This document shows, piece after piece, positions 13,247 to 39,951 of a DNA stretch of 64,000 bases. The stretch spans positions 124,001 through 188,000 of the forward strand of contig CAIYUN010000017.1 of assembly GCA_903929355.1 (NCBI GenBank), in the 5' to 3' direction. The DNA is from an uncultured Opitutaceae bacterium. GTDB taxonomy: Bacteria; Verrucomicrobiota; Verrucomicrobiia; Opitutales; Opitutaceae. The notes beneath the pieces were generated by a model, which worked only from the letters and a program-made list of their open reading frames with translations, had not been told where the DNA came from and searched no databases. How positions within the stretch are numbered: the first letter of the stretch is position 1; each line of letters opens with the position of its first letter. Position numbers and translations under genes: made by a program.

Positions 13247-14613
13247 AACGCTCGCTGTCCACCGCCGTCAGCCTGTTTCTGCTCGACGCGCTCGCCGTGC
13301 TGGTCGTGTTCAATCTGATTGGTTGGGCCCGCCTGCATCATGTGGCGGACGCGACGCATTTCGTCGGACTCCCGCTCGTCGGACCCTTCGCGCTGATGGT
13401 CACGGGATTTTACCTGATCGACGGCTACCGGCGGCGCACCGACATGCTGAGCCTCGATTACGCCAGTGAGCATCTCATCTCACTGTTTGCCGTGATGCTG
13501 GCGGCCATGCTGCTGACCTTCGTCTTTCTGCCGGAGGGCTACACGCTGCAACAAAGCCGCATTGTGGTGATGGTGAGCTTTCTGGTCCTGATGCCGGCCA
13601 CGTTGGTCTACCGGCGGGCATTGTACACCGCGCGGCTCCGCGAGCGCAGGGTGGGCTCCCTGGTTTATGTGGGTGACGCCACGCACTGCGTCGCGTTTGC
13701 CGCCGAATGCACCCGCCTGGGCCTGGCGCAGCCCGTGATCTACGCGTCCATCTCCGGCATCACCGTCCCGCCTTTTCCCGGCCTTGCGCTGGTGACGTTC
13801 GAGGAGGTGCTCGGGCAGATCGAGTCCGGGCGGCTGGAGGTCGAGGCCTTGGTGTTGCGCGAGTCGAATCGCGAGCTGAGCGCGGAGCTTTCGCAACGGC
13901 TCACCCAGCTTTATTTCCGGGGCGTGCCGACTTACACCCTGGAGCTGTTTCATCAGGTCTACTGGCGGAAGATTCCGCTCTACCGGCTCAACCAAACATG
14001 GTTGTTCCAGGAGGGCTTTCAGATCGCGCGCGAGCCGGTGTTTGAGCGGATGAAGCGGCTGAGCGACATCGTGCTCGCGGGGGTCGGCCTGCTGCTCGCC
14101 TCGCCCGTGCTCGCGGCCGCCGCGCTGGGCATCTGGCTCGAGGACCGCGGCCCGGTGTTTTTCCGGCAGACGCGCATCGGGCGGAACCACGTGCCTTTCC
14201 AGATCCTCAAGCTGCGCTCCATGCGGGTCAACGCGGGTGGCGACCGCTACACCCAGGTGGATGACCGGCGCATCACCCGTGTCGGACGGCTCCTGCGCGC
14301 CAGCCGGCTCGATGAGTTCCCCCAGCTCATCAACGTCCTGCGCGGCGAGATGAGCATGATCGGTCCACGGGCCGAGTGGGATGTGCTGGTGCGCGACTAC
14401 GAGGCGGAGATCCCCTGCTACCATTTCCGGCACCTGGTGAAACCCGGCATCACGGGCTGGGCGCAGGTCAGCTACCCCTACGGGGCCAACATGGAGGACA
14501 CGCTCCGCAAGCTCGAATACGACCTCTACTACATCCGACACTTCTCCTTTCTGCTGGACGCCGCCATCGTGCTGAAAACGATTCACATCATGATCTTCGG
14601 CAAGGGCCGGTGA
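13243..14613 (+). CDS. polyprenyl-phosphate sugar phosphotransferase (initiating enzyme)
   Basis: The 456-residue protein has four N-terminal membrane helices (residues 1-115) and a middle CoA-binding-like domain. Its bacterial sugar transferase domain runs from about residue 265: MKRLSDIVLAGVGLLL (re-entrant helix), FFRQTRIGRN, FQILKLRSM, SRLDEFPQLINVLRGEMS, IGPRAE and KPGITGWAQV. These are all hallmark motifs of WcaJ/WbaP-type enzymes, with the catalytic DE pair in LDEFPQ. It moves a sugar-1-phosphate onto undecaprenyl phosphate, the first step of glycan assembly. Being the last gene of the 14-kb operon is notable. No flippase, Wza or Wzc gene is in the window, so export parts must lie upstream or elsewhere. 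Confidence 0.93.
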   Translation: MKRSLSTAVSLFLLDALAVLVVFNLIGWARLHHVADATHFVGLPLVGPFALMVTGFYLIDGYRRRTDMLSLDYASEHLISLFAVMLAAMLLTFVFLPEGYTLQQSRIVVMVSFLVLMPATLVYRRALYTARLRERRVGSLVYVGDATHCVAFAAECTRLGLAQPVIYASISGITVPPFPGLALVTFEEVLGQIESGRLEVEALVLRESNRELSAELSQRLTQLYFRGVPTYTLELFHQVYWRKIPLYRLNQTWLFQEGFQIAREPVFERMKRLSDIVLAGVGLLLASPVLAAAALGIWLEDRGPVFFRQTRIGRNHVPFQILKLRSMRVNAGGDRYTQVDDRRITRVGRLLRASRLDEFPQLINVLRGEMSMIGPRAEWDVLVRDYEAEIPCYHFRHLVKPGITGWAQVSYPYGANMEDTLRKLEYDLYYIRHFSFLLDAAIVLKTIHIMIFGKGR

Positions 14614-14635
14614 GCCAAAAAAACTCAGCATGGTG

Positions 14636-14955
14636 ACACAAGAGCACAGAGGGCGGACACAGAGTTCACAGAGAAAAGCACTTGCGCAATCAGGATACAA
14701 GCCTGAGGCCCTTCGGTCCTTAGCCACTATCTCATCTGTGTTTCAACTCCGACCACTTCCCCTCCCTCCGATCCTACTGCCGCAACTCCACGTTTTGACT
14801 CTGTGCCCTCGGCTCGTCCCTCCGTGCTTTCCGTGTCGAGATTCGGGCGGCTTCGCCATTCTGTTCCTTTCCGTCCTCCGTTTTCTCTGTTCCCTCCTGT
14901 AAAAACTCTTCTGCCGTTCCCAACGTGTCCATCCGTGATATCCGTGGTTAAATCC
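14636..14955. repeat. foldback locus 1: inverted arrays of 9-nt CACAGAG words
   Basis: The 350-bp gap 14614-14963 holds no gene. Bases 14636-14676 are a plus-strand array of CACAGAG words. From 14796 to about 14945 the same words recur on the minus strand. The core at 14799-14826 is identical over 28 nt to 18793-18820 and matches the reverse complement of 25580-25607 at 26 of 28 positions. The 122-bp spacer has no ORF. The right arm runs to within a few bases of the start codon at 14964, so it would be in that gene's 5' leader if transcription starts upstream. Confidence 0.8.
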
Positions 14956-14963
14956 TTTTTGCC

Positions 14964-16355
14964 ATGAAAACCTACGACTTCCTCGTGCTCGGCGGCGGCA
15001 GCGCCGGGTTCAACGCCGCCCGGGCCGCCGCCGATCTCGGTCTCCGCACGGCCATCGTGGATGGGGCGCGGGATCTCGGCGGTCTCTGCATCCTGCGCGG
15101 TTGCATGCCGTCGAAGACGCTCATTTACATGGCCGAGGTCCTGCACCTCGCACGGAAAGGGAAAACCTTTGGGTTGAAAATTCCCTCCGCCCGCGCGGAC
15201 ATGAAGGCGATCCACGCGCGGAAGAAAAAAATCATCGCCGATTTCGCCGGTTACCGGGTGGATGCGCTCACGGCGGGAAAATTTGAGCTCATCCGGGCGC
15301 ACGCCCGCTTCCTCGACCCGCACACGGTGGCGTTGTCCAACGGGAAAAAGATTTCCGCCCGGCACATCCTGATTGGGACGGGATCAAAGGTCAGTGTCCC
15401 GCCGGTGCCGGGCCTGGCGGACACGCCCTTCTGGACGAGCGACGACGTGCTCGACCTCGATTTCATACCCAAGAGCGTGATTGTGCTGGGGGGTGGCATC
15501 GTGGCGTGCGAGCTCTCGCAGTTTCTCCACCGCGTGGGGGCCCGCGTCACGCTGGTGCAACGCAGCCCCAACATCCTGCGCGACCACTCCGAGGACGCCT
15601 CCGAGGTCGTGCAGCGCGCCTTCGTGGAGGAGGGGATCGAAGTGTTTGCCGGCACGAAGATTGAGCAGGTCTCCGGCGACGCCCGCGGCGTCAGCGTGAC
15701 TTTTATCCATGACGGCCGGAAAATCACCCGCCGCGCCGCCCATCTCTTCAACGCCCTCGGTCGCGAGCCCAACACCGCGTCTTTGGACCTCGCCGCCGCC
15801 GGCGTACGGGCGGGACCCAACGGCCAGATCATCATCAATCGCTGGCAACAGACCAGCGTCCCGCACATCTACGCCGCCGGGGATTGCTCGGGTCCGGCCG
15901 AGATCGTCCATATCGCCATCGCCCAGGGCGTGCTGGCGGCGAACCACGCGGCGTGCGTCCCAAAACTCAAGCCGGTGGACTACTCGTTGCTGCTGAATGT
16001 CGTGTTCACCGACCCGGCGCTCGCGACCATCGGCCGCCTGGAACGGGACCTGGACGAAGCCGGGGTGAAATACCTCTGCGCCAGCTACCCGTTCAATGAC
16101 CACGGCAAGTCCATCCTGATGGACGCGAACCATGGCTACGTCAAAATTCTCGCCGAGCCGAAGCGGGGCCGCATCCTCGGCGCGGAAATTGTGGGGCCCG
16201 ATGCCGGGGAGCTGATTCATTGCTTCAGCGGCCCCCTCGCCATGCGTGCGACGGTTTTCGATCTGCTCCGTGCTCCCTGGTATCATCCGACGTTGGCCGA
16301 GATCATCACCTACCCGCTGGAGGAGCTCGCCGGTCGGATCGCGGGGCGGAAATAG
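14964..16355 (+). CDS. FAD-dependent pyridine nucleotide-disulfide oxidoreductase (Lpd/MerA-like)
   Basis: This 463-residue class I flavoprotein has FLVLGGGSAGFNAARAA (FAD GxGxxG variant) at the N-terminus, then LGGLCILRGCMPSK with the redox-active C-x4-C pair near residue 45. It also has VIVLGGGIVACELSQFL (NAD(P)-binding), IYAAGDCSG (second FAD motif) and a C-terminal WYHPTLAEII with the His-Glu pair of the dimer-interface active site. All catalytic residues of dihydrolipoyl dehydrogenase and mercuric reductase are therefore present, but there is no MerA heavy-metal domain and no adjacent 2-oxoacid dehydrogenase gene. It transfers electrons between NAD(P)H and a disulfide or dithiol; the substrate is uncertain. 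The gene is flanked upstream by a foldback repeat locus. Confidence 0.85.
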   Translation: MKTYDFLVLGGGSAGFNAARAAADLGLRTAIVDGARDLGGLCILRGCMPSKTLIYMAEVLHLARKGKTFGLKIPSARADMKAIHARKKKIIADFAGYRVDALTAGKFELIRAHARFLDPHTVALSNGKKISARHILIGTGSKVSVPPVPGLADTPFWTSDDVLDLDFIPKSVIVLGGGIVACELSQFLHRVGARVTLVQRSPNILRDHSEDASEVVQRAFVEEGIEVFAGTKIEQVSGDARGVSVTFIHDGRKITRRAAHLFNALGREPNTASLDLAAAGVRAGPNGQIIINRWQQTSVPHIYAAGDCSGPAEIVHIAIAQGVLAANHAACVPKLKPVDYSLLLNVVFTDPALATIGRLERDLDEAGVKYLCASYPFNDHGKSILMDANHGYVKILAEPKRGRILGAEIVGPDAGELIHCFSGPLAMRATVFDLLRAPWYHPTLAEIITYPLEELAGRIAGRK

Positions 16356-16481
16356 GCCCCGGCGGGGGCGGTGGCGCCGCCCCGCCTCCCGGCCGCTGCA
16401 TTGTCGGTTGTCTTTTTGGTGACAATGTCCGGATTCATCGCGTAGAAAGCCGCTCCGACCCAGCCATCTCCCGTCCCCTCC

Positions 16482-16772
16482 ATGCCCGTTCCCGCTGACC
16501 TAAACATCGACCATGTCGCCCACCTCGCGCGCCTCGCGCTCACGCCGGAGGAGAAGACGCGGTTTGTCCGCCAGATCGGCGATGTGATCGCCCATATCGA
16601 GCAGCTCAAACAGGTGGACGTGACCGGGATTGAGCCGACCGCCCATGCGTTTCCCGTCGCCAACGTCTGGGCCGAGGATATCGCGCAGCCGGGGCTGCCC
16701 GTCGAACTCGCCCTCCGGAACGCCCCCGCCCAACGCGACCACATGATCGTGGTCCCCAAGGTCGTCGAATGA
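16482..16772 (+). CDS. gatC: Asp-tRNA(Asn)/Glu-tRNA(Gln) amidotransferase subunit C
   Basis: The 96-residue protein has the standard GatC layout: IDHVAHLARLALTPEEKTRF at the N-terminus, a helix IGDVIAHIEQLKQVDV, then GIEPTAHAFP and the acidic/Arg tail. GatC is the small belt-like subunit that holds GatA and GatB together. The complex amidates mischarged Glu-tRNA(Gln) and/or Asp-tRNA(Asn). It is first of the gatC-gatA-gatB series, 102 bp before gatA. Confidence 0.95.
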   Translation: MPVPADLNIDHVAHLARLALTPEEKTRFVRQIGDVIAHIEQLKQVDVTGIEPTAHAFPVANVWAEDIAQPGLPVELALRNAPAQRDHMIVVPKVVE

Positions 16773-16819
16773 GGCCGGGCTGTTGCTCGCCGGGGTGCCA
16801 GCAGTGACCTGCTTCTGGC

Positions 16820-16857
16820 TCCTTCCATCCTGACTCCTCCTATCCTGACTCCTTCCC
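16820..16857. repeat. 15-nt tandem array between gatC and gatA
   Basis: Two and a half copies of a 15-nt pyrimidine-rich unit ending ATCCTGAC occupy the gatC-gatA spacer (units at 16820-16834, 16835-16849 and a partial at 16850-16857). The second unit differs from the first at two positions. It is a local tandem duplication or another low-complexity word array; no function is evident. Confidence 0.6.
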
Positions 16858-16874
16858 TTCACGTTTCATCCCGC

Positions 16875-18338
16875 ATGTCCGTTGAACTCCACTACCAGAC
16901 CCTCGTTGAACTCGCCACCCTGCTCGACACCGGGCGGCTCTCCTCGGTCGAGCTGACCGCGGCGATCATCGCGCGCACCAAGGCCGTGGATGCGCGCGTG
17001 CGGGCATTCAACTCCTTCGACGAGGCCGACGCGCTGGCGCAGGCGGCCGCGTCCGACGCCCGCCGCGCGGCGGGGCAGGGTCGGGGGCCGCTTGAGGGCA
17101 TTCCCGTGGGGTTCAAGGACGTGATCTCCGTCGCCGGCCAGCCGCTCACCGCCTCCAGCAAAATGCTGGCGAACTTTGTGTCCCCGTACGATGCGACCGT
17201 CACCACGCGGTTGAAAAACGCGGGCGCGGTGTGCTGGGGCCGGCTGAACCTGGACGAGTTTGCGATGGGCTCCTCGACGGAGAACTCCGCGTTTCAGCCG
17301 ACCCGCAATCCGTGGGACCTCACGCGCGTGCCGGGCGGCTCCTCGGGGGGCAGCGCCGCCGCGCTGGCGGCGGGCGAGGCGGTGGTCACGCTTGGCTCCG
17401 ACACCGGCGGGTCCATCCGCCAGCCGGCCGCGCTCTGCGGGGTCGTCGGCCTCAAACCCACCTACGGCCTGGTCTCTCGCTACGGCCTGATCGCGTTTGC
17501 CTCCTCGCTGGACCAGATCGGGCCCTTCGCGCGCACCGTCGAGGACGCGGCCATCCTCCTTGGGGCGCTGGCCGGCCACGACGAGCGCGACTCGACCTCG
17601 GTCAAGGTCGAGCTCCCCGACTACCGCGCCGGCTTGGGCCGACGCCAGGCCCCGTGGCGGCTGGGCATCCCGAAGGAGTATTTCGGTGCGGGACTCGATC
17701 CCGAGGTGGCCGCCGCGGTGGAGAAGGCGATCGCTTATTACCGGGGGATGGGGTGCGAGATCAAGGAGGTCTCCCTCCCGCACACCGAGTATGGCGTGGG
17801 CGTCTATTACATCATCGCCACGGCCGAGTGCTCCTCGAACCTGGCGCGCTACGACGGCATCCGCTACGGCCACCGCGCCCAGGACGCGCACGACGCGGTG
17901 GACATTTATTTCAAGTCGCGCGCGGAGGGTTTTGGCGCCGAGGTGAAGCGCCGCATCATTCTCGGCACCTATGTGCTCTCCAGCGGCTACTACGACGCCT
18001 ATTACCTCCGCGCGCAAAAAGTCCGCACCCTGATCCGCCAGGATTTTCTCAACGCCTACCAGGAGGTCGACGCGCTGCTCACGCCGACCTCGCCCACGCC
18101 CGCCTTCAAGGCCGGGGAGAAGGCCGACCCACTGGCCATGTATCTGTGCGACGTGTACACCATCGGGGTGAACCTGGCCGGTCTGCCCGCCCTCAGCGTG
18201 CCGTGCGGCTTCAGCTCGGGCGGCCTGCCCATCGGGTTGCAACTGATCGGCCAGCCCTTCCGGGAGGCCCAGCTCCTCGCCATCGCCCACGCCTACGAGC
18301 AGGCCCACGACTGGCATCAAAAACATCCAAGCCTTTGA
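16875..18338 (+). CDS. gatA: Asp-tRNA(Asn)/Glu-tRNA(Gln) amidotransferase subunit A
   Basis: This is a 487-residue amidase-signature enzyme of normal GatA length. The Ser-cisSer-Lys catalytic triad is visible: Lys in [10 protein letters not shown] (about 78), and the two Ser residues in [14 protein letters not shown] and [13 protein letters not shown] (about 150-180). Downstream [20 protein letters not shown] and [16 protein letters not shown] are GatA-specific. It releases ammonia from glutamine or asparagine and channels it to GatB. A CACAGAG repeat arm begins directly at its stop codon and separates it from gatB. Confidence 0.97.
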
Positions 18339-18364
18339 GACACAGAGGGCACAGAGCACAAACC

Positions 18365-18369
18365 GGAGG
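18365..18369 (+). promoter_or_regulatory. Shine-Dalgarno supplied by the repeat arm
   Basis: GGAGG inside the left repeat arm lies 8 nt before the ATG at 18378, an ideal spacing. The repeat words themselves (GGAGGGCACGGAG) therefore form the ribosome-binding site of the enclosed gene. This fixes the start choice and ties the gene to the array. Confidence 0.7.
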
Positions 18370-18377
18370 GCACGGAG

Positions 18378-18755
18378 ATGAATGAGGAGATAAACCAACT
18401 GACCGAACAGGTGATTGGCGCGGCCATCGAGGTTCATCGCGACCTCGGGCCGGGGTTGCTGGAATCGGCCTACCAACGGGCGTTGGCTCATGAGCTGCGT
18501 TTGCGTGCCGTGCCCTTTGAGGAGCAAAAATTCTGCCCGGTAAAATATAAGGATTTGCTGATCGATGACGCTTACCGGCTCGATTTTCTCATCAATGGGT
18601 TGGTCGTGGTGGAGCTTAAAACGGTGGACGCCCTGCTCGACGTCCATGAGGCTCAAGTCCTGACCTACCTTAAATTCACCGGATGCCACGTCGGCCTGTT
18701 GCTCAACTTTCGCTCCACCATCCTCACCCGCGGCCTGCGCCGCCTTGCATTGTGA
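18378..18755 (+). CDS. GxxExxY protein, PD-(D/E)xK nuclease-like fold
   Basis: The 125-residue protein has the name-giving motif as G26-LL-E29-SA-Y32, preceded by IGAAIEVHRDLGPG. The nuclease-like half has LDFLINGLVVVELK, giving D69 and E79-x-K81, the D-x(n)-E-x-K arrangement of the PD-(D/E)xK superfamily to which Pfam assigns this family. No biological function is established for the family. Codon use and GC are lower than in the adjoining gat genes. It sits between gatA and gatB, flanked on both sides by inverted CACRGAG arrays, with its RBS inside the left one. It is not needed for amidotransferase function, so it looks like an insertion. Confidence 0.9.
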   Translation: MNEEINQLTEQVIGAAIEVHRDLGPGLLESAYQRALAHELRLRAVPFEEQKFCPVKYKDLLIDDAYRLDFLINGLVVVELKTVDALLDVHEAQVLTYLKFTGCHVGLLLNFRSTILTRGLRRLAL

Positions 18756-18784
18756 TATTCTTGCTGAACTTCACCTCAATTTCA

Positions 18785-18850
18785 TTTCCTCCCTCTGTGC
18801 CCTCGGCTCGTCCCTCCGTGCCCTCTGTGTCCCCAATTTCCGTGATCTCT
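18785..18850 (-). repeat. right arm of the gatA-gatB foldback cassette
   Basis: Read on the minus strand, this arm consists of CACRGAG words with period about 9. Bases 18793-18820 are identical over 28 nt to 14799-14826, in the same orientation. It pairs with the left arm at 18339-18377 and ends a few bases before the gatB start, so it lies in the gatB leader. Confidence 0.8.
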
Positions 18851-18855
18851 TCCCC

Positions 18856-20313
18856 ATGAACTACGAAGCCGTCATTGGTCTGGAGGTCCATGTCCAGGTC
18901 CGGACCAACTCCAAGATGTTTACCCGCGTGGCCGCGGGTTACGGGTTCGAGCCCAACACGCTCACCGATCCGGTGGTCCTCGCGCTGCCTGGCACGCTGC
19001 CGGTGTTGAACAAGGCGGCGCTCGACGCGATCATCAAGACGGGGCTCATGCTCGGCTGCCAGATCGCGCCGGTCTGCAAGTGGGACCGCAAAAACTACTT
19101 TTACCCCGATTCGCCGAAAAACTACCAGATCTCCCAATACGACCAGCCGGTCTGCCTCGGGGGCTTCGTGGAGATCGAGCTCCCGGGCCCCGCCCGCAAT
19201 GTCATGGGCGAGCACAAGAAAATCCCACTCACCCGCATCCATCTCGAGGAAGACGTGGGCAAGCTCAACCACGGCGCGTCCGACTCGCTCATCGACTTCA
19301 ACCGCGCCGGCACCCCCCTGATGGAGATCGTCTCCGAGCCGGCCATGCGCACGGCCGAGGAGGCCTTTGCCTACCTGACCTCGCTCCGGCAGACCATCAT
19401 TTACGGCGGCATTTCCGACTGCGACATGGAGAAGGGGCAGCTCCGCTGTGACGCCAACATCTCCATCCGTCCGGTCGGCGAAACGAAGCTCGGGACCAAG
19501 GTGGAGCTGAAGAACCTGAACTCCATCTCATTTGTCCGCGACGGCATCGCCCACGAGATCAAACGCCAGCTCGCTGTCGTCGCGGCCGGCGGCACCCTCG
19601 TGCAGGAGACGCGCGACTACGACGGCCAGACGGGTGCATCGCAGTCGCTCCGCTCAAAGGAGATGGCCCACGACTACCGCTATTTCCCCGACCCCGACCT
19701 CATGCCGGTGAAGGTGGACGAGGCCTGGAAGGCCCGACTCCGCGCCGAATGCCCCGAGCTGCCCTTCGACCGGCAACGGCGTTTCCTCGCCGACTACGCG
19801 GTGCCCTACACCATCACCTCGGTGCTGGTGCCCGACCAGGAGTTGTCCCAATATTTTGAAGAGACCGCAAAACTGGCCGGTCCCGGTCGTGCTCAGGCGG
19901 TCGGCAACTGGATCGTCAACGACCTGCTCCGCGAGCTGGGGGCGGCGGGTCTTCCGCTGGCCGCCTCCAAGGTGCGACCGGCGCAGGTGGCGGCGCTGGT
20001 GCAGTTGGTGGAGGCGGGCACCGTACTGAACCAAGGCGCGAAGGAGATTTTCACCGAGATGTTTGCCACCGGCGAGCCGCCTGAGGTGATCGCCGACCGG
20101 CGGGGCCTGCGCGCTGTACCCACCGATGCCGGCGAGCTGGAGCAATGGTGCCGCGACGCCATCGCGGCCAGCCCCAAGGCGCTAGCCGAGTTTAAGGCCG
20201 GCAAAGAGAGCGCGATCAACGCCTTCAAGGGTCCGGTGATGAAGGCCGCCAAGGGGAAGGCCAACCCGAAGCTCGTGGACGAGGCCCTGCGCCGCCTGCT
20301 GGCGGCGATGTGA
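18856..20313 (+). CDS. gatB: Asp-tRNA(Asn)/Glu-tRNA(Gln) amidotransferase subunit B
   Basis: ATG 18856 gives a 485-residue protein of normal length starting MNYEAVIGLEVHVQVRTNSK, the canonical GatB N-terminus; the longer open frame upstream is repeat sequence. Kinase-domain landmarks include YPDSPKNYQISQYDQP, EEDVGKLNH, FNRAGTPLMEIVSEP, CDANISIRP and KVELKNLNS. The C-terminal YqeY-like tail domain (about residues 330-485) ends PKLVDEALRRLL. GatB phosphorylates the mischarged aminoacyl-tRNA with ATP and amidates it. The gene is detached from gatA by the 517-bp cassette region. Confidence 0.97.
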   Translation: MNYEAVIGLEVHVQVRTNSKMFTRVAAGYGFEPNTLTDPVVLALPGTLPVLNKAALDAIIKTGLMLGCQIAPVCKWDRKNYFYPDSPKNYQISQYDQPVCLGGFVEIELPGPARNVMGEHKKIPLTRIHLEEDVGKLNHGASDSLIDFNRAGTPLMEIVSEPAMRTAEEAFAYLTSLRQTIIYGGISDCDMEKGQLRCDANISIRPVGETKLGTKVELKNLNSISFVRDGIAHEIKRQLAVVAAGGTLVQETRDYDGQTGASQSLRSKEMAHDYRYFPDPDLMPVKVDEAWKARLRAECPELPFDRQRRFLADYAVPYTITSVLVPDQELSQYFEETAKLAGPGRAQAVGNWIVNDLLRELGAAGLPLAASKVRPAQVAALVQLVEAGTVLNQGAKEIFTEMFATGEPPEVIADRRGLRAVPTDAGELEQWCRDAIAASPKALAEFKAGKESAINAFKGPVMKAAKGKANPKLVDEALRRLLAAM

Positions 20314-20337
20314 GGCCGGCTCGGGTCCACGCGGTAA

Positions 20338-20361
20338 GTAGCGCAGGCATCCCTGCCTGCC
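20338..20361 (+). repeat. GTAG-headed REP-like hairpin, copy 1
   Basis: GTAG at 20338-20341 is followed by a short palindrome (GCAGGC...GCCTGC around a 6-nt loop). The GTAG head plus hairpin is the layout of REP elements moved by REP-associated tyrosine transposases. Related but different copies lie at 25454-25475, 30275-30300 and 39952-39976. No such transposase gene is in the window. Confidence 0.55.
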
Positions 20362-20429
20362 TCCGTTCGTCATGGGGCAAAGCCTGCGCCGCGTTGCCAG
20401 CAGCGCTGTGCTTTCACTGTCCGCCACCA

Positions 20430-20452
20430 TAAAAACCCGCAGTCAATGCGGG
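20430..20452 (-). terminator. Rho-independent terminator of the minus-strand secreted-protein gene
   Basis: Read on the minus strand, CCCGCA and TGCGGG form a perfect 6-bp stem around a 5-nt loop, followed at once by TTTTTA. It lies about 80 bp beyond the stop at 20535, in the right direction for that gene. Confidence 0.7.
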
Positions 20453-20534
20453 AATATCATGGTGACTGGTTCGGTGCCACCGGGGGGGGGTGACCACCGC
20501 GACCACCCTTCGGCCTTCCCCCGCGACCCGACCG

Positions 20535-21725
20535 TCACGTCCCTTTGCCCGGTTCGTGACCGGGGCGGATGGGAGCAGTGTGCGTGCTCACATAAGTGTC
20601 ATAGGTTTCGTTGAGGCCCGCGTTGATGGCGGTCTGCGTCTGGCTGATGTCGCGCATCAGCTTGAGCCGGTATCCGTCCAGCTCGCCCATGATCGGATGC
20701 GGGATGCCGTCATCGCCATTCGGTCGCGCGTTCGTCAACGCGTTCAAGACCTCGTTCAAGGCGTCAACTGCGGCCACCACCGGGGGGTTGGTGAACCGGC
20801 CGGCGGGATTTCGGTCCAGGGCCGGCGGCAGCCCGGCGAGCCGGATGGGCGGGTCTTCGGGCGACATGACCCCGCCGGTCAGGGCATCGTTGGCGGGATA
20901 CTTCTGGATATAGGAGAGGGCCGCCGCCAGATCGGACCGCGCCAGTTCGCACGTCGCGAGCGCCTGGTCCCGGCGGGGGGGAGCCACGGCCAGTTCGTCG
21001 AGATCGCTGGACGCAGGCAGGCGAAGCGCCGATTCAGTCTGTTCCAGCGCGCGCCGGGCGAGTTCGAGACGTTTGGTCATGGACAGGCTGCCGGAGTAGA
21101 AGGCGGTGGCGTTGGCGGGCGGACCCAGAGGTGTGATGGTGCGGGTACCCAACCCGGCTCCATCTGCGGGGCCGGTGGTGGCAATGGCGTGGTTCATGCC
21201 CGCGATCACATCGGAGGCCGCGCGGTCGATGCTGGTGACGAGCCGGCTGCGAAAGCCGTCCGCGTCCCCACCGGGCGTGCGTTGCAGGGCGCTGAGCGCG
21301 GTGTGCAGCGACTTCAGCACGGTCCGCAGACTGGGGAGGCGGAAACTCGCGGGCGGATCGAAGCCGGCAATCCGGGCACTGAGGGCGTCGATTGCAGGCG
21401 AAGGGCTGGTGGGGAGCAGGTTCATCTCCGGGTGGCTTTGGCGGGAGGCGAGCCAATCAGTCAGGATTGACACCGCCTGATCCAAATCGGCACGGGAAAT
21501 TTCAACGTATCCGCCCTTGTTTTCGGGTGTGGCAACCCGCATGGCATTGACGGCCTGGGTGAGGGCGAGTTTGGCGGCGGCGAGAGGTGAGGGGGCGGCG
21601 GCGGGTTCCACCTTGGTCGGCGGGCTGCCGACCGTTGCTGATGTAACCTGGCCATCGGTGAAAGCCGCCATGATAGACCAAAGAAAGACTGCCGGAAAAA
21701 CCAGATGGAGGCGGGGCGGTTTCAT
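20535..21725 (-). CDS. secreted protein of unknown function, 396 aa
   Basis: The start is set at 21725 because it gives a good signal peptide (MKPPRLHLVFPAVFLWSIMAAFTDG, cleavage near residue 25). A longer open frame runs on through the divergent pyc gene and is spurious. The mature protein is Ala/Leu/Ser/Pro-rich and probably all-helical, with evenly spaced helices and PPAxFRLPSL-type turns. No Cys pairs, metal motifs or membrane spans were seen and no family was recognised. Three segments beginning near residues 45, 215 and 320 share a helix-Pro-rich-loop pattern, so weak internal repetition is possible. It is transcribed away from pyc and has its own terminator. Confidence 0.7.
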   Translation of the reverse strand: MKPPRLHLVFPAVFLWSIMAAFTDGQVTSATVGSPPTKVEPAAAPSPLAAAKLALTQAVNAMRVATPENKGGYVEISRADLDQAVSILTDWLASRQSHPEMNLLPTSPSPAIDALSARIAGFDPPASFRLPSLRTVLKSLHTALSALQRTPGGDADGFRSRLVTSIDRAASDVIAGMNHAIATTGPADGAGLGTRTITPLGPPANATAFYSGSLSMTKRLELARRALEQTESALRLPASSDLDELAVAPPRRDQALATCELARSDLAAALSYIQKYPANDALTGGVMSPEDPPIRLAGLPPALDRNPAGRFTNPPVVAAVDALNEVLNALTNARPNGDDGIPHPIMGELDGYRLKLMRDISQTQTAINAGLNETYDTYVSTHTAPIRPGHEPGKGT

Positions 21726-21872
21726 GCTTGGGATCCAAACCAAGGCTGGTAAGGCTTGGCAACCAGATTGGAGGCGCCCAGACCCAACCGAAGACGCGCC
21801 GGGTCGTGCCCAAAAGATTGACGCGGCCGGTTCGCGGACCTTGCATCGCCGGCGCCTCCACCCAAACCCCTG

Positions 21873-24800
21873 ATGAAAAAACTGCTCGCCGCCAACCGCG
21901 GCGAAATCGCCATCCGCATCTTTCGCGCCGCCACCGAGCTCGGGCTCCGGACCGTGGCCCTTTACGCGCAGGAGGACCGCCTCGGCATGCACCGGTTCAA
22001 GGCCGACGAGGCCTACCCGGTGGGCCAGGGGCTGGGCCCGGTCGCCGCGTATCTCGACATTCCGGGCATTGTGGGCCTCGCCCAGGAACACGGCGTGGAG
22101 CTCGTTCATCCCGGCTACGGCTTTCTCTCCGAAAACGCGAATTTCGCCCGCGCCTGCGTCGAGGCGGGGCTCACCTTTGTCGGCCCGCGGCCCGAGCTGC
22201 TTGAAATGATGGGCGACAAGACCGCGGCCCGCGCCCTGGCCCAACGGCTCAAAATCCCGGTGCTCCCCGGCACCGAGCAGGCGATCAGCGACCGCGACGA
22301 GGCGCTCAAGGCGGCGAAGGCCATCGGCTTTCCCCTCATCATCAAGGCCGCGTTTGGCGGCGGCGGCCGCGGCATGCGCGTCGTGACCAAGGCGGCGGAC
22401 CTCGCGCATCTGCTGGACGAGGCGCAGGGCGAGGCGGGCCGCGCCTTTGGCAACCCGGCCGTGTTTCTGGAAAAATACATCCCGCGCGCCAAGCACCTCG
22501 AGGTGCAGATCCTGGGCGACCAGCATGGCAACGTCATCCATCTCCACGAGCGTGACTGCTCGGTGCAGCGCCGCCACCAGAAGGTCGTTGAAGTCGCGCC
22601 CAGCTTCGGCCTCCCCGAGGGCGTGGTCGCCGAGTTGTGCGAGGCCGCCGCCCGTCTCGCGCGCGAGATTCGCTACGACAATGCCGGCACGGTCGAGTTT
22701 CTCTACGACCTTGACCGCCACGAGTGGTTCTTCATCGAGATGAACCCCCGCATCCAGGTCGAGCACACCGTCACCGAGGTGATCACCGGCCTCGACCTCG
22801 TGCGGGCGCAAATCCTCATCGCCCAGGGCCATGCCCTCCATTCGCCCGAGGTCGGCCTGCCGCACCAGGCGGACATCCCGCGCAACGGCTACGCGATCCA
22901 GTGCCGCATCACGACCGAGGATCCGGAGAACAAGTTCATCCCCGACTACGGCCGCCTCATCGCCTACCGCTCCCCCGGCGGTTTCGGCGTCCGCCTCGAC
23001 GGAGGCATGGGCTACGCCGGCGCGGTCATCACCCCGTTTTACGACTCGCTGCTCGTGAAGTGCATCACCAGCGGCCAGACCTATGACATTGCGCTCAGCC
23101 GCGCCCGGCGGACGCTGGCCGAGTTCCGGATCCGTGGGGTCAAGACCAACATCCCCTTTTTGGAAAACGTCATCGCCCACCCGCAGTTTCGGGCGGGGGA
23201 GGCGACCACGACGCTGATTGACACCACGCCCGAGCTGTTCGCGTTCAAGCCCCGCCGCGACCGCGCGACCAAGCTGCTCAATTTCCTCGGCCACGTCATC
23301 GTCAACGGCAACCCCCATGCCAAGGGCTACCGGCCCGACCGGACCATGCCGGTTGCGCCGATTCCTGAGGCCAGTGGCCCGAGGGTGGGGCAAGTTGACG
23401 TGAAAGCGCCGGGCGCAGCCTCTGGACATTCCGCAATCCGAAATCCGAAATCCGCAATTCCACCAGGCACGCGGCAGCAGCTCTTCGCGCTCGGGCCGAA
23501 AAAGTTCGCCGAGTGGACGCTGGCCCAGCGCCGCCTGCTCATCACCGACACCACCTGGCGCGACGCCCACCAGTCGCTGCTGGCCACCCGCGTCCGCAGC
23601 TATGACATGCTGGCCTGCGCGGATGCGCTGGCGCGGCGCGTGCCGCAGCTTTTCTCACTGGAGATGTGGGGCGGCGCGACCTTCGACACCGCGATGCGCT
23701 TCCTCAATGAGGACCCGTGGGAGCGGCTGCGCCAGCTCCGCGCCCGCGTGCCGAACATTTGCTTCCAGATGCTGTTCCGCGGCGCCAACGCCGTCGGCTA
23801 CACCAACTATCCCGACCATGTGGTGGCCGGGTTCGTGCGGCACGCGGCCGCCGGGGGCATGGACATCTTCCGCGTCTTCGACTCGCTCAACTATCTGCCC
23901 AACCTCCGGGTCGCGATGGAGTCGGTCAACGCCACCCATGCGGTCTGCGAGGCCGCGATCTGCTACACGGGCGACATTCTCGATGAAAAGCGCGACAAGT
24001 TTTCGCTCAAGTATTACGTCCGGCTCGCGAAGGAACTGGAGAAAATGGGCGCGCATTTTCTCGCGATCAAGGACATGGCCGGCCTCTGCCGCCCCTATGC
24101 CGCCCAGAAGCTCGTGAAGGCCCTGAAGGAAGAGATTGGCCTGCCGGTGCATTTCCACACCCACGACACCAGCGGCACCGCCGCCGCCAGCGTACTCCGC
24201 GCCGCCGATGCCGGGGTGGACGTGGTGGACCTGGCGCTCGCGGCGATGAGCGGCAGCACCTCGCAGCCCAACCTCAACTCCATCGTCGCCGCGCTCCAGC
24301 ACACCCCGCGCGATCCCGGTCTCGATCTGCCCGCGCTCAACGAGTTTTCCGACTATTGGGAGGTCGTCCGCGGCTATTACGCACCCTTCGACACCGCGCC
24401 CAAAAGCGGCTCCGCCGAGGTCTATCTCCACGAGATGCCGGGCGGCCAGTACACCAACCTCCGGGAGCAGGCGGCGTCGCTCGGCGTCGCGCACCGCTGG
24501 CCCGAGATCGCGCGCGCCTATGCGGAGGTCAACCAGCTCTTCGGCGACATCGTGAAGGTCACCCCGTCGTCGAAGGTCGTAGGCGACATGGCGCTGTTTC
24601 TGTTCTCACGCGGCATCAAGGCCGCCGATGTCGTCAACCTTGAGCCCGGCTCGATGCCCTTTCCCGAGTCGGTCATCGACATGATGGCGGGCGGGCTCGG
24701 CTGGCCCGAGGGCGGCTGGCCCGAGCCGGTGTCGCTTGTCATCCTCGGCGCAAAACGCCACGCCGAAGCCCGCGCCAAATACAAGGCGTCGCTGAAAAAG

Positions 24801-25421
24801 GTGGGGCGCGTTGTCCCCAACGCGCCTTCGTTCGACATCGATAAAGTCCGCACCGAGCTTTCCGACAAGCTCAAGCGTGCCGCCGGTGATGATGACCTCT
24901 ATTCGCACCTCATGTATCCGGCGGTTTTCGCCGACTTCTCGAAACACACGCAGGCTTACGGCGATGTGAGCGTGCTGCCCACGCCGGCGTTCTTCTACGG
25001 CCTCCGGCCGGGGGAGGAAATTTCAGTCGCAATTGAGGAAGGGAAGACCCTCATTGTGCGCCTCGTCTCCGTCGGCCCGCCCGACACGGACGGCCGCCGC
25101 CCCCTCAGCTACGAGCTCAATGGCATTGCGCGCGAGGCCTACATCCTCGATAAGAATGTCGCCCCCAAGACCCGGGCCCGTCCGAAGGCCGACCTGGCCG
25201 ACCCCACCCAAGTCGCGGCACCCATCCCCGGCCTGATCGCCGCGCTGGCGGTCTCCGTCGGCACCAAGGTCGCCAAGGGCGACAAGCTCCTGATGATGGA
25301 GGCGATGAAGATGCAGAACACCGTCTACGCCCCCTGCGACGGCGTGGTCGCCGAGCTGCACGTCGCGCTCAGCGACACGGTGGAGAGCAAGGATCTGCTG
25401 GTGAAGATCCGCCCGGCGTGA
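21873..25421 (+). CDS. pyc: pyruvate carboxylase
   Basis: The 1182-residue protein has the full single-chain pyruvate carboxylase order. The biotin carboxylase domain (1-470) starts KKLLAANRGEIAIRIFRAA and includes the ATP loop KAAFGGGGRGMRVV and FIEMNPRIQVEHTVTE. The carboxyltransferase domain (about 545-1090) has LLITDTTWRDAHQSLLATRV, the catalytic KDMAGL Lys and HFHTHDTSG metal ligands. The biotinyl domain has MMEAMKMQN with the biotinylated Lys at 1146. It makes oxaloacetate from pyruvate, bicarbonate and ATP. The linker between the first two domains (about residues 497-535) is unusually long and contains a translated 7-nt repeat array. It is divergent from the secreted-protein gene at 21725. 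Confidence 0.96.
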   Translation: MKKLLAANRGEIAIRIFRAATELGLRTVALYAQEDRLGMHRFKADEAYPVGQGLGPVAAYLDIPGIVGLAQEHGVELVHPGYGFLSENANFARACVEAGLTFVGPRPELLEMMGDKTAARALAQRLKIPVLPGTEQAISDRDEALKAAKAIGFPLIIKAAFGGGGRGMRVVTKAADLAHLLDEAQGEAGRAFGNPAVFLEKYIPRAKHLEVQILGDQHGNVIHLHERDCSVQRRHQKVVEVAPSFGLPEGVVAELCEAAARLAREIRYDNAGTVEFLYDLDRHEWFFIEMNPRIQVEHTVTEVITGLDLVRAQILIAQGHALHSPEVGLPHQADIPRNGYAIQCRITTEDPENKFIPDYGRLIAYRSPGGFGVRLDGGMGYAGAVITPFYDSLLVKCITSGQTYDIALSRARRTLAEFRIRGVKTNIPFLENVIAHPQFRAGEATTTLIDTTPELFAFKPRRDRATKLLNFLGHVIVNGNPHAKGYRPDRTMPVAPIPEASGPRVGQVDVKAPGAASGHSAIRNPKSAIPPGTRQQLFALGPKKFAEWTLAQRRLLITDTTWRDAHQSLLATRVRSYDMLACADALARRVPQLFSLEMWGGATFDTAMRFLNEDPWERLRQLRARVPNICFQMLFRGANAVGYTNYPDHVVAGFVRHAAAGGMDIFRVFDSLNYLPNLRVAMESVNATHAVCEAAICYTGDILDEKRDKFSLKYYVRLAKELEKMGAHFLAIKDMAGLCRPYAAQKLVKALKEEIGLPVHFHTHDTSGTAAASVLRAADAGVDVVDLALAAMSGSTSQPNLNSIVAALQHTPRDPGLDLPALNEFSDYWEVVRGYYAPFDTAPKSGSAEVYLHEMPGGQYTNLREQAASLGVAHRWPEIARAYAEVNQLFGDIVKVTPSSKVVGDMALFLFSRGIKAADVVNLEPGSMPFPESVIDMMAGGLGWPEGGWPEPVSLVILGAKRHAEARAKYKASLKKVGRVVPNAPSFDIDKVRTELSDKLKRAAGDDDLYSHLMYPAVFADFSKHTQAYGDVSVLPTPAFFYGLRPGEEISVAIEEGKTLIVRLVSVGPPDTDGRRPLSYELNGIAREAYILDKNVAPKTRARPKADLADPTQVAAPIPGLIAALAVSVGTKVAKGDKLLMMEAMKMQNTVYAPCDGVVAELHVALSDTVESKDLLVKIRPA
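23429..23461 (-). repeat. 7-nt-period array translated within pyc
   Basis: On the minus strand the sequence is four successive 7-nt units of the form ATTKCGG. On the plus strand it is read as SAIRNPKSAI (residues 520-529 of pyruvate carboxylase). Similar 7-nt arrays are intergenic at 28849-28897 and 35606-35635. It keeps the frame and adds no stop, so it is tolerated as interdomain linker. Confidence 0.75.
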
Positions 25422-25437
25422 GGGTAAAACCCGGAGT

Positions 25438-25745
25438 TTTTTACAGGAGGTAACTACCGCCTTTGCCAAGGCTACGGCGCGACAAGGAGGAAACAGAGGA
25501 AGGAGGGGGAGTGTCCACGAATGACACGGATAGGGCACGAAAGAGGGAAGTGTTCGGAATTGGTTTGGGACACGGAGAACACGGAGGGCCGAGCCGAGGG
25601 CACGGAGACGATGGGGCATCGCATTGCGTTTCTGGGCTTTCACATCAGTGATCATCAGTGTTAATCATGGTTGAAGTTCTGTTCTCCGACCTCTGTGTCC
25701 TCTGGTTTTCCTCTGTGCGCTCTGTGTCTAAAATCCGATAGTTTC
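25438..25745. repeat. foldback locus 2 plus REP-like copy in the pyc downstream gap
   Basis: The 359-bp gap 25422-25780 has no credible gene. It starts with TTTTTTACAGGAGG, a repeat word also seen at 26608 and 32444. A minus-strand GTAG-type hairpin follows at 25454-25475, then plus-strand CACGGAG arrays at about 25482-25612 (core 25580-25607), a 75-bp spacer, and a minus-strand array at about 25683-25735. The two arms are inverted relative to each other. Confidence 0.75.
25454..25475 (-). repeat. GTAG-headed REP-like hairpin, copy 2
   Basis: On the minus strand GTAG is followed by CCTTGGCAAAGG, a 4-5-bp stem with a 4-nt loop. The layout matches the other three GTAG hairpins in the window. 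It is embedded in foldback locus 2. Confidence 0.5.
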
Positions 25746-25780
25746 GCTTCCGCGAGAAGCACAGACTGAAACATCCCACC

Positions 25781-26596
25781 GTGCCCACGCCCCCCGCCAA
25801 AATCACCGCCGGTACGGTCCGGTCCGACTTCAACGACCCGGTGGCCGTGGTGCATTATGCGCGGGCGGCGCATTTTCTCGGACTCTGGGAGTCTGAACGC
25901 GTCCTGATCGGGCGGTTTTTCCCCGACCTGACCGCGCACCTGCTCGAGGCTGGTTGTGGCGCGGGCCGGGTCACCCTCGGGCTCTGGGCGCTCGGCCACC
26001 GCCGGCTCACCGCCTTCGACTTCGCCGAGGAGCTGCTTGACCAGGCCCGCCACCTCGCGGCGGAGCGGGACGCGATCGGCATCAACTTCCTTCACGCCGA
26101 CGCGACCACCCTCGGTCAGTGTCACTTATTACGTGACACGGCCTTGGAGAACGCGTGGCGATCGGAGCCGGGGTTTGGCGGCGCGTTGTTTTTGTTCAAC
26201 GGCCTCATGCAGATCCCCGGGCGGGAGAACCGCCGGGCCGCTTTGCGCGAGCTCCATGCGGTGTGCGCGCCGGGCGCGCCGTTGCTGTTCACCACGCACG
26301 ACCGCGACCATTCGCCCACCGAGCGAGCGCTGTGGCGGCTGGAGGCTCTCCGCTGGGAGGCCGGCACGCAGGACCCGCGGCTGGTGGAGTTTGGCGACCG
26401 GTATTTCGAGGATGAGACTGGCCGCACCTTCATGCACCTGCCCGACCGCGCGGAGATCCTGGCCGACCTCGCCGCCACCGGCTGGACGCATGAGTTCGAC
26501 GCCCTCCGCCACGAAATCGCCCGCGAGTCGCGCGCGGTGCGGGAATTTTCCGACGAGTGCCGTTTTTGGGTGGCGCGCAAGCCCGCACGGGCTTGA
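25781..26596 (+). CDS. class I SAM-dependent methyltransferase
   Basis: The 271-residue protein uses a GTG start at 25781. The SAM-binding motif I is LLEAGCGAGRVTLGL (about 54-68), followed by LTAFDFAEELLDQAR (motif II acidic residue) and NFLHADATTL (motif III). ALFLFNGLMQIPGRENRR is typical of a group of uncharacterised methyltransferases; the substrate is unknown. Between motif III and this segment lies QCHLLRDTALENAWRSEP, about 20 residues encoded partly by a perfect 7-bp inverted repeat at 26119-26139, which looks like an in-frame insertion. No operon partner: both flanks are repeat loci. Confidence 0.85.
   Translation: MPTPPAKITAGTVRSDFNDPVAVVHYARAAHFLGLWESERVLIGRFFPDLTAHLLEAGCGAGRVTLGLWALGHRRLTAFDFAEELLDQARHLAAERDAIGINFLHADATTLGQCHLLRDTALENAWRSEPGFGGALFLFNGLMQIPGRENRRAALRELHAVCAPGAPLLFTTHDRDHSPTERALWRLEALRWEAGTQDPRLVEFGDRYFEDETGRTFMHLPDRAEILADLAATGWTHEFDALRHEIARESRAVREFSDECRFWVARKPARA
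26119..26139. repeat. 7-bp perfect inverted repeat inside the methyltransferase gene
   Basis: GTGTCAC and GTGACAC flank a 7-nt AT-rich loop (TTATTAC) in otherwise very GC-rich coding sequence. It would fold as a hairpin in mRNA. It falls in a loop of the predicted fold and its translation (CHLLRDTA) looks unlike its surroundings. Confidence 0.6.
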
Positions 26597-26607
26597 CCGC
26601 TTGGATG

Positions 26608-26838
26608 TTTTACAGGAGGAAACGGAGCAAACGGAGTGGGAAAGAGACAGAGGTTTAACCACGGATGAATACGGATGAACACGGATGGAGGAAAACGTGT
26701 CGTTCGCGTCCATTGTGTCCTGCGACGGAGTCTATGAAGCCAAACAAATACCTTTAACCACATATGCACACTGATTTACACTGATCAGAGCCTCGTTACC
26801 TTCCGGCTCTCTTCCACTCCGTTGCCTCCGTTCGCTCC
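26608..26838. repeat. foldback locus 3: inverted GGAGnAAAC arrays with ACGGAT words
   Basis: The 354-bp gap 26597-26950 has no credible gene. The left part begins with a 29-nt stretch (26608-26636) identical to 32444-32472, made of GGAGnAAAC 9-nt words. It then has three ACGGATG words with period 10 (about 26662-26693). The right part (26806-26838) is the inverted counterpart of 26615-26645 with roughly 80% identity. The spacer holds further ACACTGAT-type words. Confidence 0.75.
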
Positions 26839-26950
26839 GGTAAAAACAGGGTCTGGCATCACTGGTCCGGCTGGCGGTGCCCCTTCGGTGGGTCCGCGAA
26901 TCAACCCTTGCGGGGCGTGGTCCTCGCCGCGACGCTGACCGCGCCGCTCC

Positions 26951-28144
26951 ATGCAAAACGTCGTCATTGACCAGCCTTATGTGCCGATCCCGCCCAAGCA
27001 CGGGCGGTTCTGGCCGACGGTGCTGACGTGGTGCGCGCCGCGGCTGCTGCGGAAAAAATATGGCGTGGAAAAAGTCGAGTTTGTCCATGCGGAGCGGTTG
27101 CGGGCCTCCCTCCAGGCCGGCCACGGGGTCGCGCTCGCCGCCAACCATTGCCGCGACGAGGACCCGCTCGTGGCGGGACTGGTGGGGCGGGAGACGGGCG
27201 CGCCGCCGTTCATCATGGCGAGCTGGCATGTGTTCATGCAGGGCCGCCTGCTGGCCTTTCTCCTGCCCCGCGCCGGAGGCTTCAGCATCTACCGCGAGGG
27301 CATTGACCGGGCGGCGATCAACACGGCGATTGAGATTCTCGAACAGGCCGGCCGGCCCCTGCTGATTTTTCCCGAGGGCCATATCTCGCGCGCCAACGAT
27401 AGGCTCAACACCCTCATGGAGGGCGTGGCGCTCATGGCCCGTACCGCGGCCAAACGGCGCGCGAAGCTCAATCCGCCCGGCAAGGTGGTCGTGCATCCGC
27501 TGGCGATCCGCTACCGATTCCATGGCGATGTCGCGGCGGCCGTCACCTCGGTGCTGGACGAGATCGAGGCGCGGCTCTCCTGGCGGCCCAATCGGCACCT
27601 GCCGCTGCGAGAACGGATCGGCAAGGTCGGCGCGGCCCTGCTCACGCTCAAGGAGCTCGAGTACCTCGGCCGGCCACAGACCGGCACCATTGGCGAACGC
27701 CTGCAGGCACTGACCAACGCGATCCTCTCCCCGCTGGAGGACGAGTGGGCGGGCGGGCGGCATGACGACACAGTGGTGGGACGCGTGAAGCGGCTGCGCA
27801 GCGCCATCCTCCCCGACATGGTGAAGGGCGACCTTGATGAGGCCGAGCGCCAGCGGCGTTGGAAACACCTCGCCGACGCCTATCTGGCGCAGCAGCTCTT
27901 CCATTATCCGCCGGACTACCTCGACGCCAACCCCTCGCCCGAGCGTTTGCTGGAAACGGTGGAGCGGTTCGAGGAGGATCTGACCGACAAGGTGCGCGTG
28001 CATGGCTCCCGCTCGGCCACCGTCACGGTGGGCGAAGCCATCGAGGTGAATCCTGTCCGCGAAGGGCGCGGCGGGGCGGACCCCCTGCTGCAGGAGATCG
28101 AGCGGCAGTTGCAAACCATGCTGGGGCTGGCCGGCAGCGGCTGA
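26951..28144 (+). CDS. PlsC-like lysophospholipid acyltransferase
   Basis: The 397-residue protein has acyltransferase motif I as NHCRDED (H-x4-D, about 66-72), motif II around FSIYREG, motif III as LLIFPEGHIS (about 136-145) and motif IV as VVHPLAIRYR. These are the four blocks of glycerolipid acyltransferases. The roughly 200 residues after the core are a helical extension not found in minimal PlsC enzymes, so acceptor specificity is uncertain. It should act at the inner face of the cytoplasmic membrane. It is 6 bp upstream of a PAP2-related gene, suggesting a shared lipid pathway. Confidence 0.85.
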   Translation: MQNVVIDQPYVPIPPKHGRFWPTVLTWCAPRLLRKKYGVEKVEFVHAERLRASLQAGHGVALAANHCRDEDPLVAGLVGRETGAPPFIMASWHVFMQGRLLAFLLPRAGGFSIYREGIDRAAINTAIEILEQAGRPLLIFPEGHISRANDRLNTLMEGVALMARTAAKRRAKLNPPGKVVVHPLAIRYRFHGDVAAAVTSVLDEIEARLSWRPNRHLPLRERIGKVGAALLTLKELEYLGRPQTGTIGERLQALTNAILSPLEDEWAGGRHDDTVVGRVKRLRSAILPDMVKGDLDEAERQRRWKHLADAYLAQQLFHYPPDYLDANPSPERLLETVERFEEDLTDKVRVHGSRSATVTVGEAIEVNPVREGRGGADPLLQEIERQLQTMLGLAGSG

Positions 28145-39826: not shown

Positions 39827-39852
39827 GGGCGGAGAACGGACGCAGAGTTTAC

Positions 39853-39875: not shown

Positions 39876-39951
39876 CGGATCAAGCATTCGGCGTTTTTGG
39901 TAAAGGCTCAGTTTGCTTGTTTGGGTAGGGAAGTCACTCCGTGGCGTCCGC

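Follow-up and report, generated by a model that had tools for sequence, protein, structure and literature searches.

Between gatA and gatB of an uncultured Opitutaceae bacterium lies a small gene enclosed by inverted arrays of a short repeat. What does this gene encode, do similar arrays accompany its relatives, and how is it related to the gene-less foldbacks found in the same genome? The stretch of DNA analysed here, referred to as the window, is 64,000 nt long. The initial annotation of the window proposed that the protein belongs to the GxxExxY family, that it may act on the flanking arrays and that the other foldback loci may be empty or decayed versions of the same unit.

A GxxExxY gene with inverted arms in the gat operon

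The locus comprises the following features.

16482-16772, plus strand: gatC of the host operon (TIGR00135)
16875-18338, plus strand: gatA of the host operon (TIGR00132)
18339-18377, plus strand: left arm, four units, CACAGAG-GG-CACAGAG-CACAA-ACCGGAG-GG-CACGGAG, spacing 2-5-2, 0 mismatches to the four-unit pattern; units start at 18341 (CACAGAG), 18350 (CACAGAG), 18362 (ACCGGAG) and 18371 (CACGGAG)
18378-18755, plus strand: GxxExxY gene, PD-(D/E)xK nuclease-like, 125 aa (TIGR04256, PF13366)
18793-18829, minus strand: right arm, CACAGAG-GG-CACGGAG-GGACG-AGCCGAG-GG-CACAGAG, spacing 2-5-2, 0 mismatches to the four-unit pattern
18856-20313, plus strand: gatB of the host operon (NF004012, TIGR00133)

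Profiles identified the neighbouring products as GatC, GatA and GatB, which bore out the annotated position of the gene between gatA and gatB. The TGA stop codon of gatA abuts the left arm. Inverted arms had been reported on both sides of the gene and were recovered as two paired stretches of 44 nt (18334-18377 and 18793-18836), which are 75% complementary and include two perfect 12-nt pieces. The further claim that the arms fill the gatA-gatB junction held for the left side but not for the right, where there are gaps on either flank of the array, 37 nt from the stop codon to the array and 19-26 nt from the array to gatB. A Shine-Dalgarno sequence inside the left arm, as annotated, is plausible because the GGAGG of this arm lies 8 nt before the ATG. 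With up to two mismatches allowed, CACRGAGNNCACRGAG occurred 19 times in the window compared to 2.2 expected occurrences.

The window protein is a predicted PD-(D/E)xK nuclease

In profile searches, the product of the complete 125-codon ORF matched PF13366 (E 1.1e-40, 139 bits, cut-off 22) and TIGR04256, the GxxExxY family (140.8 bits, curated cut-off 35), and PDDEXK_3 was the sole domain in a Pfam scan. An alignment of 50 sequences, including that of the window, revealed that G26, E29, Y32, D69 and K81 are invariant, while E79 and a further QxxxY motif (Q93, Y97) are each at least 90% conserved. All six residues named in the initial annotation, G26, E29, Y32, D69, E79 and K81, are thus in place.

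The AlphaFold model of the protein (pLDDT 94.4, pTM 0.87) had SSO0001, which we take to be a Cas4, as its top structural match in Foldseek (E 0.004), and VIA-align also ranked SSO0001 first (Z 9.9, rmsd 3.5, 99 residues aligned). Ranked below it were restriction enzymes, Hjc, another Cas4, AddAB, AdnAB and lambda exonuclease, all with weak E-values or with Z below 8, a range graded as common by the tool; the lists also contained proteins other than DNA enzymes, namely tRNA-splicing endonucleases and human Rep15. A PDB sequence search with the family profile, taken up to an E-value of 10, returned no solved relative, and PADLOC gave weak Cas4 matches alone (E 0.0007 and 0.006). The model indicates that the window protein has a PD-(D/E)xK fold in which the catalytic D...ExK is present. 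It would share this fold with Cas4/RecB-type nucleases, together with the D, the ExK and the QxxxY, the last of which we liken to the motif of these enzymes; unlike them, it has only 125 aa. The GxxExxY family name occurs once in PMC8934634 and once in one other paper. Among papers accessible without subscription, we found no link between GxxExxY, PF13366 or TIGR04256 and repeats.

Inverted arrays flank GxxExxY genes in many phyla

We took 350 bp from either flank of the protein domain, reverse-complemented one of the two and aligned them locally. The sample consisted of 97 loci from the phylum of the window (mostly one per genome, the best family matches) and 78 of 80 named loci from many phyla; L132 and L155 were left out of the flank tests because their flanks are short. 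Matching inverted arms reached a score of 13, a threshold set after the first results were known, at 147 of the 175 loci and a score of 15 at 131, fractions that may not extend to distant family members since the loci are the best-scoring members and nearest relatives of the window protein. The 147 loci comprised 84/97 of the phylum set and 63/78 of the named set. Counting loci with either a score of 13 or an identical heptad class on both sides raised the number to 161/175; 14 of the 28 loci below the threshold were also without a heptad label.

The controls gave much lower values. At a score of 13, shuffled flanks were positive in 0.6% and 0.9% of cases and flanks taken 750-1100 or 1150-1500 bp away in 4/90 and 1/56 (together 5/146); for the phylum set, both of these controls used uncorrected positions for the contig-end loci L013, L021, L034 and L037. 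Other genes were positive in 3/37 cases in the window and in 10/235 in 340 kb of relatives (total 13/272), and these counts fell to 0/37 and 2/235 at a score of 15. Among the named loci, positives were found in 15 of 18 phyla, including Chloroflexota (12/12), Bacteroidota (14/19), Planctomycetota (7/9) and Pseudomonadota (6/6), with none in Ignavibacteriota (0/2), Fidelibacterota (0/1) and Methanobacteriota (0/1). The tabulation across phyla that the initial annotation had called for therefore came out on the side of an association: neither GxxExxY genes devoid of arrays nor arrays equally common beside unrelated genes, the two outcomes named as contrary, were the pattern in the samples tested. 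Eight array-rich genomes had 29 matches, of which 8 fragments were left out; 18 of the 21 loci tested reached a score of 13, and three of the 21 overlap with the 175. At L255, the GxxExxY gene sits in an array pair and reads through. The only viral contigs found with a GxxExxY relative, L183, L184 and L185 from IMG/VR, are all arrayed, with scores above 20.

The association was also apparent at the level of whole genomes. GxxExxY genes were detected in 228 of 387 genomes of the window's phylum, Verrucomicrobiota judging by the nearest named relatives, with at most the best 11 candidates scored in each, and exact three-unit CAC-type arrays in 160 of 387, compared to 7 for the reversed control pattern. 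Arrays were present in 147/228 genomes with a GxxExxY gene and in 13/159 without (odds ratio 20). Within the family of the source organism, the corresponding counts were 28/31 and 0/6, and in the rest of the order 10/18 and 0/8. Thirteen of the 160 array-bearing genomes had no detected GxxExxY gene. Many CAC-type arrays were seen in G142 (19 arrays), G313, G318, G115 and G293, in which GxxExxY was not detected; a CACGGATATCACGGATGACACTGAT family with short unique tips is common to G142 and G371 (L261-L263). The source genome has eight GxxExxY genes, seven of which have inverted arms close outside the gene. The repeated words at these seven loci are CACGGAG, CACRGAG, CACTAAT, AACGAAG, CGCAAAG (two loci) and ATCAGGAA.

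The arms are consistent with repeated sites and follow the protein lineage

The unit consists of inverted arms, each mostly of three or four 7-bp words with 2-bp spacers, around one GxxExxY gene; the window element has four words per arm. The word varies from locus to locus and is common to both arms of one locus, and left arms resemble themselves most when shifted by 9 nt. Identity between arms was 91% at positions that repeat within an arm and 69% at non-repeating positions (42 arms), values of which only the contrast counts because the arms were chosen by alignment. At 24 loci where each arm has three exact units, a set in which heptad agreement is partly fixed by the search pattern, spacers agreed between arms at 53% of positions versus 39% after re-pairing, so shared descent or conversion of the arms contributes too. 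Since the heptads are kept alike while the spacers drift, putative repeated binding sites fit these arms better than a selected long duplex.

We weighed these data against the possibility that the locus acts as RNA, like a 23S rRNA intervening sequence (IVS), with RNase III cutting the stem out of the gat mRNA, the protein being secondary and the stem hiding the start codon and tuning expression. The window transcript folds better than shuffled sequences (z -3.9), and strong folding of the single-stranded DNA was computed for four gene-less foldbacks (z -6.5 to -11.8). The flanking genes, taken as the longest open frames, are mostly co-directional (118/158 upstream, 124/164 downstream), and two relatives have S23p elements in their gatA-gatB junction. 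The IVS of Coxiella is known to be excised by RNase III (PMC4990558), and the 23S rRNA IVS resembles the window element in being a foldback, of about 430 nt here, around one small ORF where interruption is tolerated. The window element differs in that it lies between protein genes, encodes a nuclease fold rather than S23p and has heptad arms. The arm differences themselves favour sites in DNA over an RNA stem, as they had no excess of G-U over A-C (244 vs 240, 134 loci); an RNA stem as the selected object was disfavoured on this ground. The poor conservation of spacers between arms whose repeated positions are conserved also speaks against it, as does the lack of any Rfam match in 14000-27500 of the window. 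We therefore consider the RNA explanation distinctly improbable.

The nearest protein relative of a locus had the same heptad class in 72% of cases, compared to 45% after permutation (maximum 60%), across 141 loci and ignoring pairs more than 70% identical. For the ACNGGAT class, the nearest relative was of the same class in 9/9. In a FastTree phylogeny, many forks of which are weak, six heptad classes need 22 changes; the ACNGGAT class needs 2 versus a shuffled mean of 8.9, and seven labels need 46 versus a shuffled mean of 80. L122, L135, L168 and L185 were excluded from the tree and nearest-neighbour tests for lack of a clean frame. These results demonstrate that heptad class follows protein lineage. 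Co-inheritance of arms and gene suffices to account for the match, and a recognition code would do so too. Another arm type was observed at the GxxExxY loci L044, L059, L052, L084 and L087, with ACCACCCGCT plus CTAGAG or CTGGAGARAACARCCGAGT in place of clean heptads.

GxxExxY units have moved as gene plus arms

Comparison of L044 with L059 revealed 88% identity over 500 bp through the gene and arms between unrelated flanks. Likewise, the pairs L058/L102 and L128/L160 are similar in core and arms and unrelated beyond them. The GxxExxY unit thus moves or has moved.

The gatA-gatB junction was readable in 28 genomes, including the source; L192 and L193 were left out, and L019 was not treated as a gat junction, because these loci contain no gatB start. 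The junction holds a GxxExxY gene in 7 of the 28 and a four-helix-bundle gene in 2; by eye, it holds a gene-less foldback in 6, a single arm in 1 and nothing of the kind in 12. Three genomes of the same genus differ at this site. G388 carries the window lineage at 86% identity, and G390 a different GxxExxY lineage, at 53%, whose nearest relatives are at other sites. In G387, the junction is empty and similarity to the window stops at the outer edges of the arms, which indicates that the arms were gained or lost as one with the gene. Otherwise, the lineage to which the window copy belongs is found in synteny across several genera, at 70-91% identity, so this copy is an old resident. The whole insert at the gat junction measures about 430-590 bp, leaving room for one gene only.

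Target duplications were not evident at GxxExxY elements: for k = 5, 14/124 loci had one, compared to a re-paired mean of 9.7 and maximum of 17, in a test that is weak because the exact ends are uncertain, the tips may vary by lineage and old duplications decay. At the other foldbacks of the window, none of the relatives compared was collinear.

Gene-less foldbacks of the same architecture are dispersed in the source genome

The two-unit AAG/GAG-type pattern occurred 204 times in the source genome versus once for the reversed control. Allowing as many as two mismatches, we counted 84 four-unit arms with 2-5-2 spacing, of which 45 are exact and 5 lie in the window (control 0). Only the window element's own two arms have a GxxExxY gene within 2 kb; the remaining 82 of 84 are away from all eight such genes. 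Such arms were rare in the pieces of relatives, with a single one in 60 kb of G010 and none in either 114 kb of G388 or six others, so the four-unit expansion is seen in the source genome only. The window contains the following gene-less foldbacks.

14645-14895: gene-less foldback whose right side matches part of the right arm of the window element at 29/29 positions (14799-14827)
25571-25726: gene-less CACRGAG foldback, four-unit arm at 25571-25607
26608-26845: gene-less AACGGAG foldback with nested CACGGAT/CACTGAT arrays inside
39848-40049: gene-less foldback with CCAGGAA-type arms
46716-46915, plus strand: copy of a 199-bp family, CACRGAG four-unit arm, ATGAA duplicated at 46711-46715 and 46916-46920
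60724-60855: gene-less AACGAAG foldback, arm TTTGAACAGAAG-NN-AACGAAG-GG-AACGAAG

Gene-less foldbacks with the same arm architecture as the GxxExxY units are dispersed in the source genome, and one family was inserted with 5-bp duplications. This 199-bp family has at least 40 matches there (the best 40 of 94 candidates scored), of which 30 copies were collected as L305-L334. Its tips, CCTARATTCAGCAG and CTGCGCTTTTTAGG, lie outside CACAGAG arms. In the duplication test (30 loci, 27 tabled, 5 incomplete ones skipped), 8 of 22 full-length copies had exact 5-bp duplications, such as ATTAA, ATCAT, TTGAT, ATGAA and TTCAT, compared to 4% after re-pairing, and no other duplication length stood out. Judged by position only, none of 33 exact tip matches was an obvious gene-bearing copy; they were copies of the short family or lay at contig ends, as several did.

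Gene-bearing and gene-less elements of the source genome have the heptads CACRGAG and AACGAAG in common, and the arm of the foldback at 60724-60855, which belongs to a second gene-less family, recurs in the GxxExxY element L004. The match is a loose one: in G174, nearly all arrays listed are CACGGAT and the three GxxExxY loci carry other words. The view that the other foldbacks are empty or decayed versions of the gene-bearing unit is therefore supported in part. It agrees with the common arm architecture, the abundance in the source genome (82/84 arms) and the insertion of one family with duplications; it is at odds with the separate tips of the 199-bp family, the lack of duplications at GxxExxY elements and the 13/160 array-bearing genomes in which no GxxExxY gene was detected.

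Different heptad types are nested or adjacent at 26570-26880 of the window and at L362, L366 and L377, and some intergenic stretches thus look like mosaics of several insertion generations. One-sided arrays at 32457-32548 and near 32580 consist of AACGGAG, CACRGAG and, after these, CACTAAT-like words; no right arm matches them, and they look like remnants or a nested insertion.

The excess of gene-less arms over arms at GxxExxY genes, the agreement of heptads with protein lineage and the existence of nested foldbacks would each suit a homing-like process, in which arrays already spread by another agent serve as landing sites and the GxxExxY gene inserts at its recognition heptads. In that case, however, empty gatA-gatB junctions would be expected to keep their arrays, and those of 12/28 genomes, by eye, had none; the similarity of G387 to the window also stops at the outer arm edges. 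We regard homing as very improbable.

DDE enzymes commonly make 5-bp duplications. Since the tips of the 199-bp family are distinct and lie beyond the arms, another transposase could move this family, and GxxExxY might then be a passenger of foldbacks moved by a DDE-type transposase with other ends, or might have a host role in repair or defence, with the arms as expression or insulation elements. The distinct tips and 5-bp duplications, the lack of target duplications at GxxExxY elements and the vertical inheritance of the gat copy over several genera are all compatible with this account, as are S23 foldbacks with the same layout whose protein is not a nuclease (see below). It fits less well with a gat-junction insert of about 430-590 bp that has space for one gene only, with the strong tie of arrays to GxxExxY presence and of heptad class to protein lineage, and with the 33 tip matches among which, by position, no obvious gene-bearing copy was seen. 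On balance, the passenger account appears unlikely.

A second class of foldbacks carries four-helix-bundle genes

The four-helix-bundle genes at gatA-gatB in two relatives match TIGR02436, which is presumably the S23p family, and weakly match Avd; their arms are made of another repeat. TIGR02436 genes were found in 301 of 387 genomes, and inverted arms of other short repeats, including TAGTGGC, TAGGCAC and GAGCTT, were present at 21 of 30 TIGR02436 loci (null 0.3%, far control 1/30). The loci are as follows.

L199, 1074-1436: four-helix-bundle gene (S23-like, weakly Avd-like) with inverted arrays
L203, 2558-2920: the same
L216-L245: the same

The two classes of foldback have the same layout, with a small gene, inverted arrays and a common landing place, and differ in both repeats and protein. 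Among described elements, the relatives of this second class are the 23S rRNA IVS that carry S23p (PMC4990558).

Comparison with known mobile systems

REPIN-RAYT systems, as presented in PMC3116915, have a nuclease gene beside inverted repeats and many dispersed gene-less hairpin doublets in intergenic DNA, in several sequence flavours that are each tied to one protein. Like these, the GxxExxY gene is flanked by inverted repeats that are dispersed gene-less in the genome (84 arms, control 0). RAYT is a Y1 (HUH) tyrosine transposase, whereas the only Pfam domain of the window protein is PDDEXK_3; the arms are heptad arrays in place of single REP palindromes, and one gene-less family here has 5-bp duplications. 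The window system therefore works like REPIN-RAYT with an unrelated nuclease and lacks the Y1 domain that defines it.

Bacterial MITEs (PMC10969869) are matched by the 199-bp family, a short gene-less element with inverted arms that has 5-bp duplications and at least 40 matches, but not by the GxxExxY element. Unlike MITEs, the 199-bp family shares its arm architecture with a nuclease-gene element, and no DDE insertion sequence sharing its ends was found. No DDE transposase is present between the ends of the window element, which hold one gene with PDDEXK_3 only. Eukaryotic foldback (FB) elements also have inverted arms of short tandem subrepeats and occur in gene-bearing and gene-less forms; Tm1 is said to be one of them. 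Unlike the window element, they are Mutator-like and their arms are much longer.

A model for GxxExxY foldback elements

Our preferred reading, which we hold at somewhat better than even confidence, is that the window locus represents, in its gene-bearing form, a class of bacterial foldback elements whose nuclease would recognise its own heptads and move the element. The starting points are the observed unit, its association with GxxExxY genes, the co-variation of heptad and protein, and the evidence that units and one gene-less family moved in the past. From these, we infer that the GxxExxY protein would bind its element's heptads as repeated, inverted sites and would cut or nick at or beside them, perhaps on a DNA hairpin or cruciform; its fold is nearest to Cas4/RecB-type enzymes. 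Such cutting would drive the movement or conversion of the element, so that the element would be moved by the GxxExxY protein. The protein may also act in trans on gene-less foldbacks with matching heptads; by analogy with one RAYT gene behind many REPINs, one GxxExxY source copy might lie behind many gene-less foldbacks. The window copy may be a stable, vertically inherited source copy that is tolerated between gatA and gatB, and its left arm, which bears the Shine-Dalgarno sequence, may allow translation of the gene to be damped by its own protein or by the stem. The points against the model are the missing duplications at GxxExxY elements, the tips of the 199-bp family, the 13 array-bearing genomes without GxxExxY, the mismatch in G174 and the S23 foldbacks, which are nuclease-free.

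A broader form of the model, to which we give slightly less than even weight, is that GxxExxY proteins are the dedicated nucleases of ancient, pan-bacterial foldback elements with lineage-specific heptads and satellites moved in trans, and that the S23-like class competes with them for safe sites. Because the heptad is directly readable at each locus, a protein-DNA code would be testable locus by locus. If the model is true, a widespread protein family of unassigned role would gain a function and a testable DNA target, and a nuclease that is neither HUH nor DDE would join the proteins behind miniature bacterial elements. It would also account for short repeats scattered through the intergenic regions of these phyla and others.
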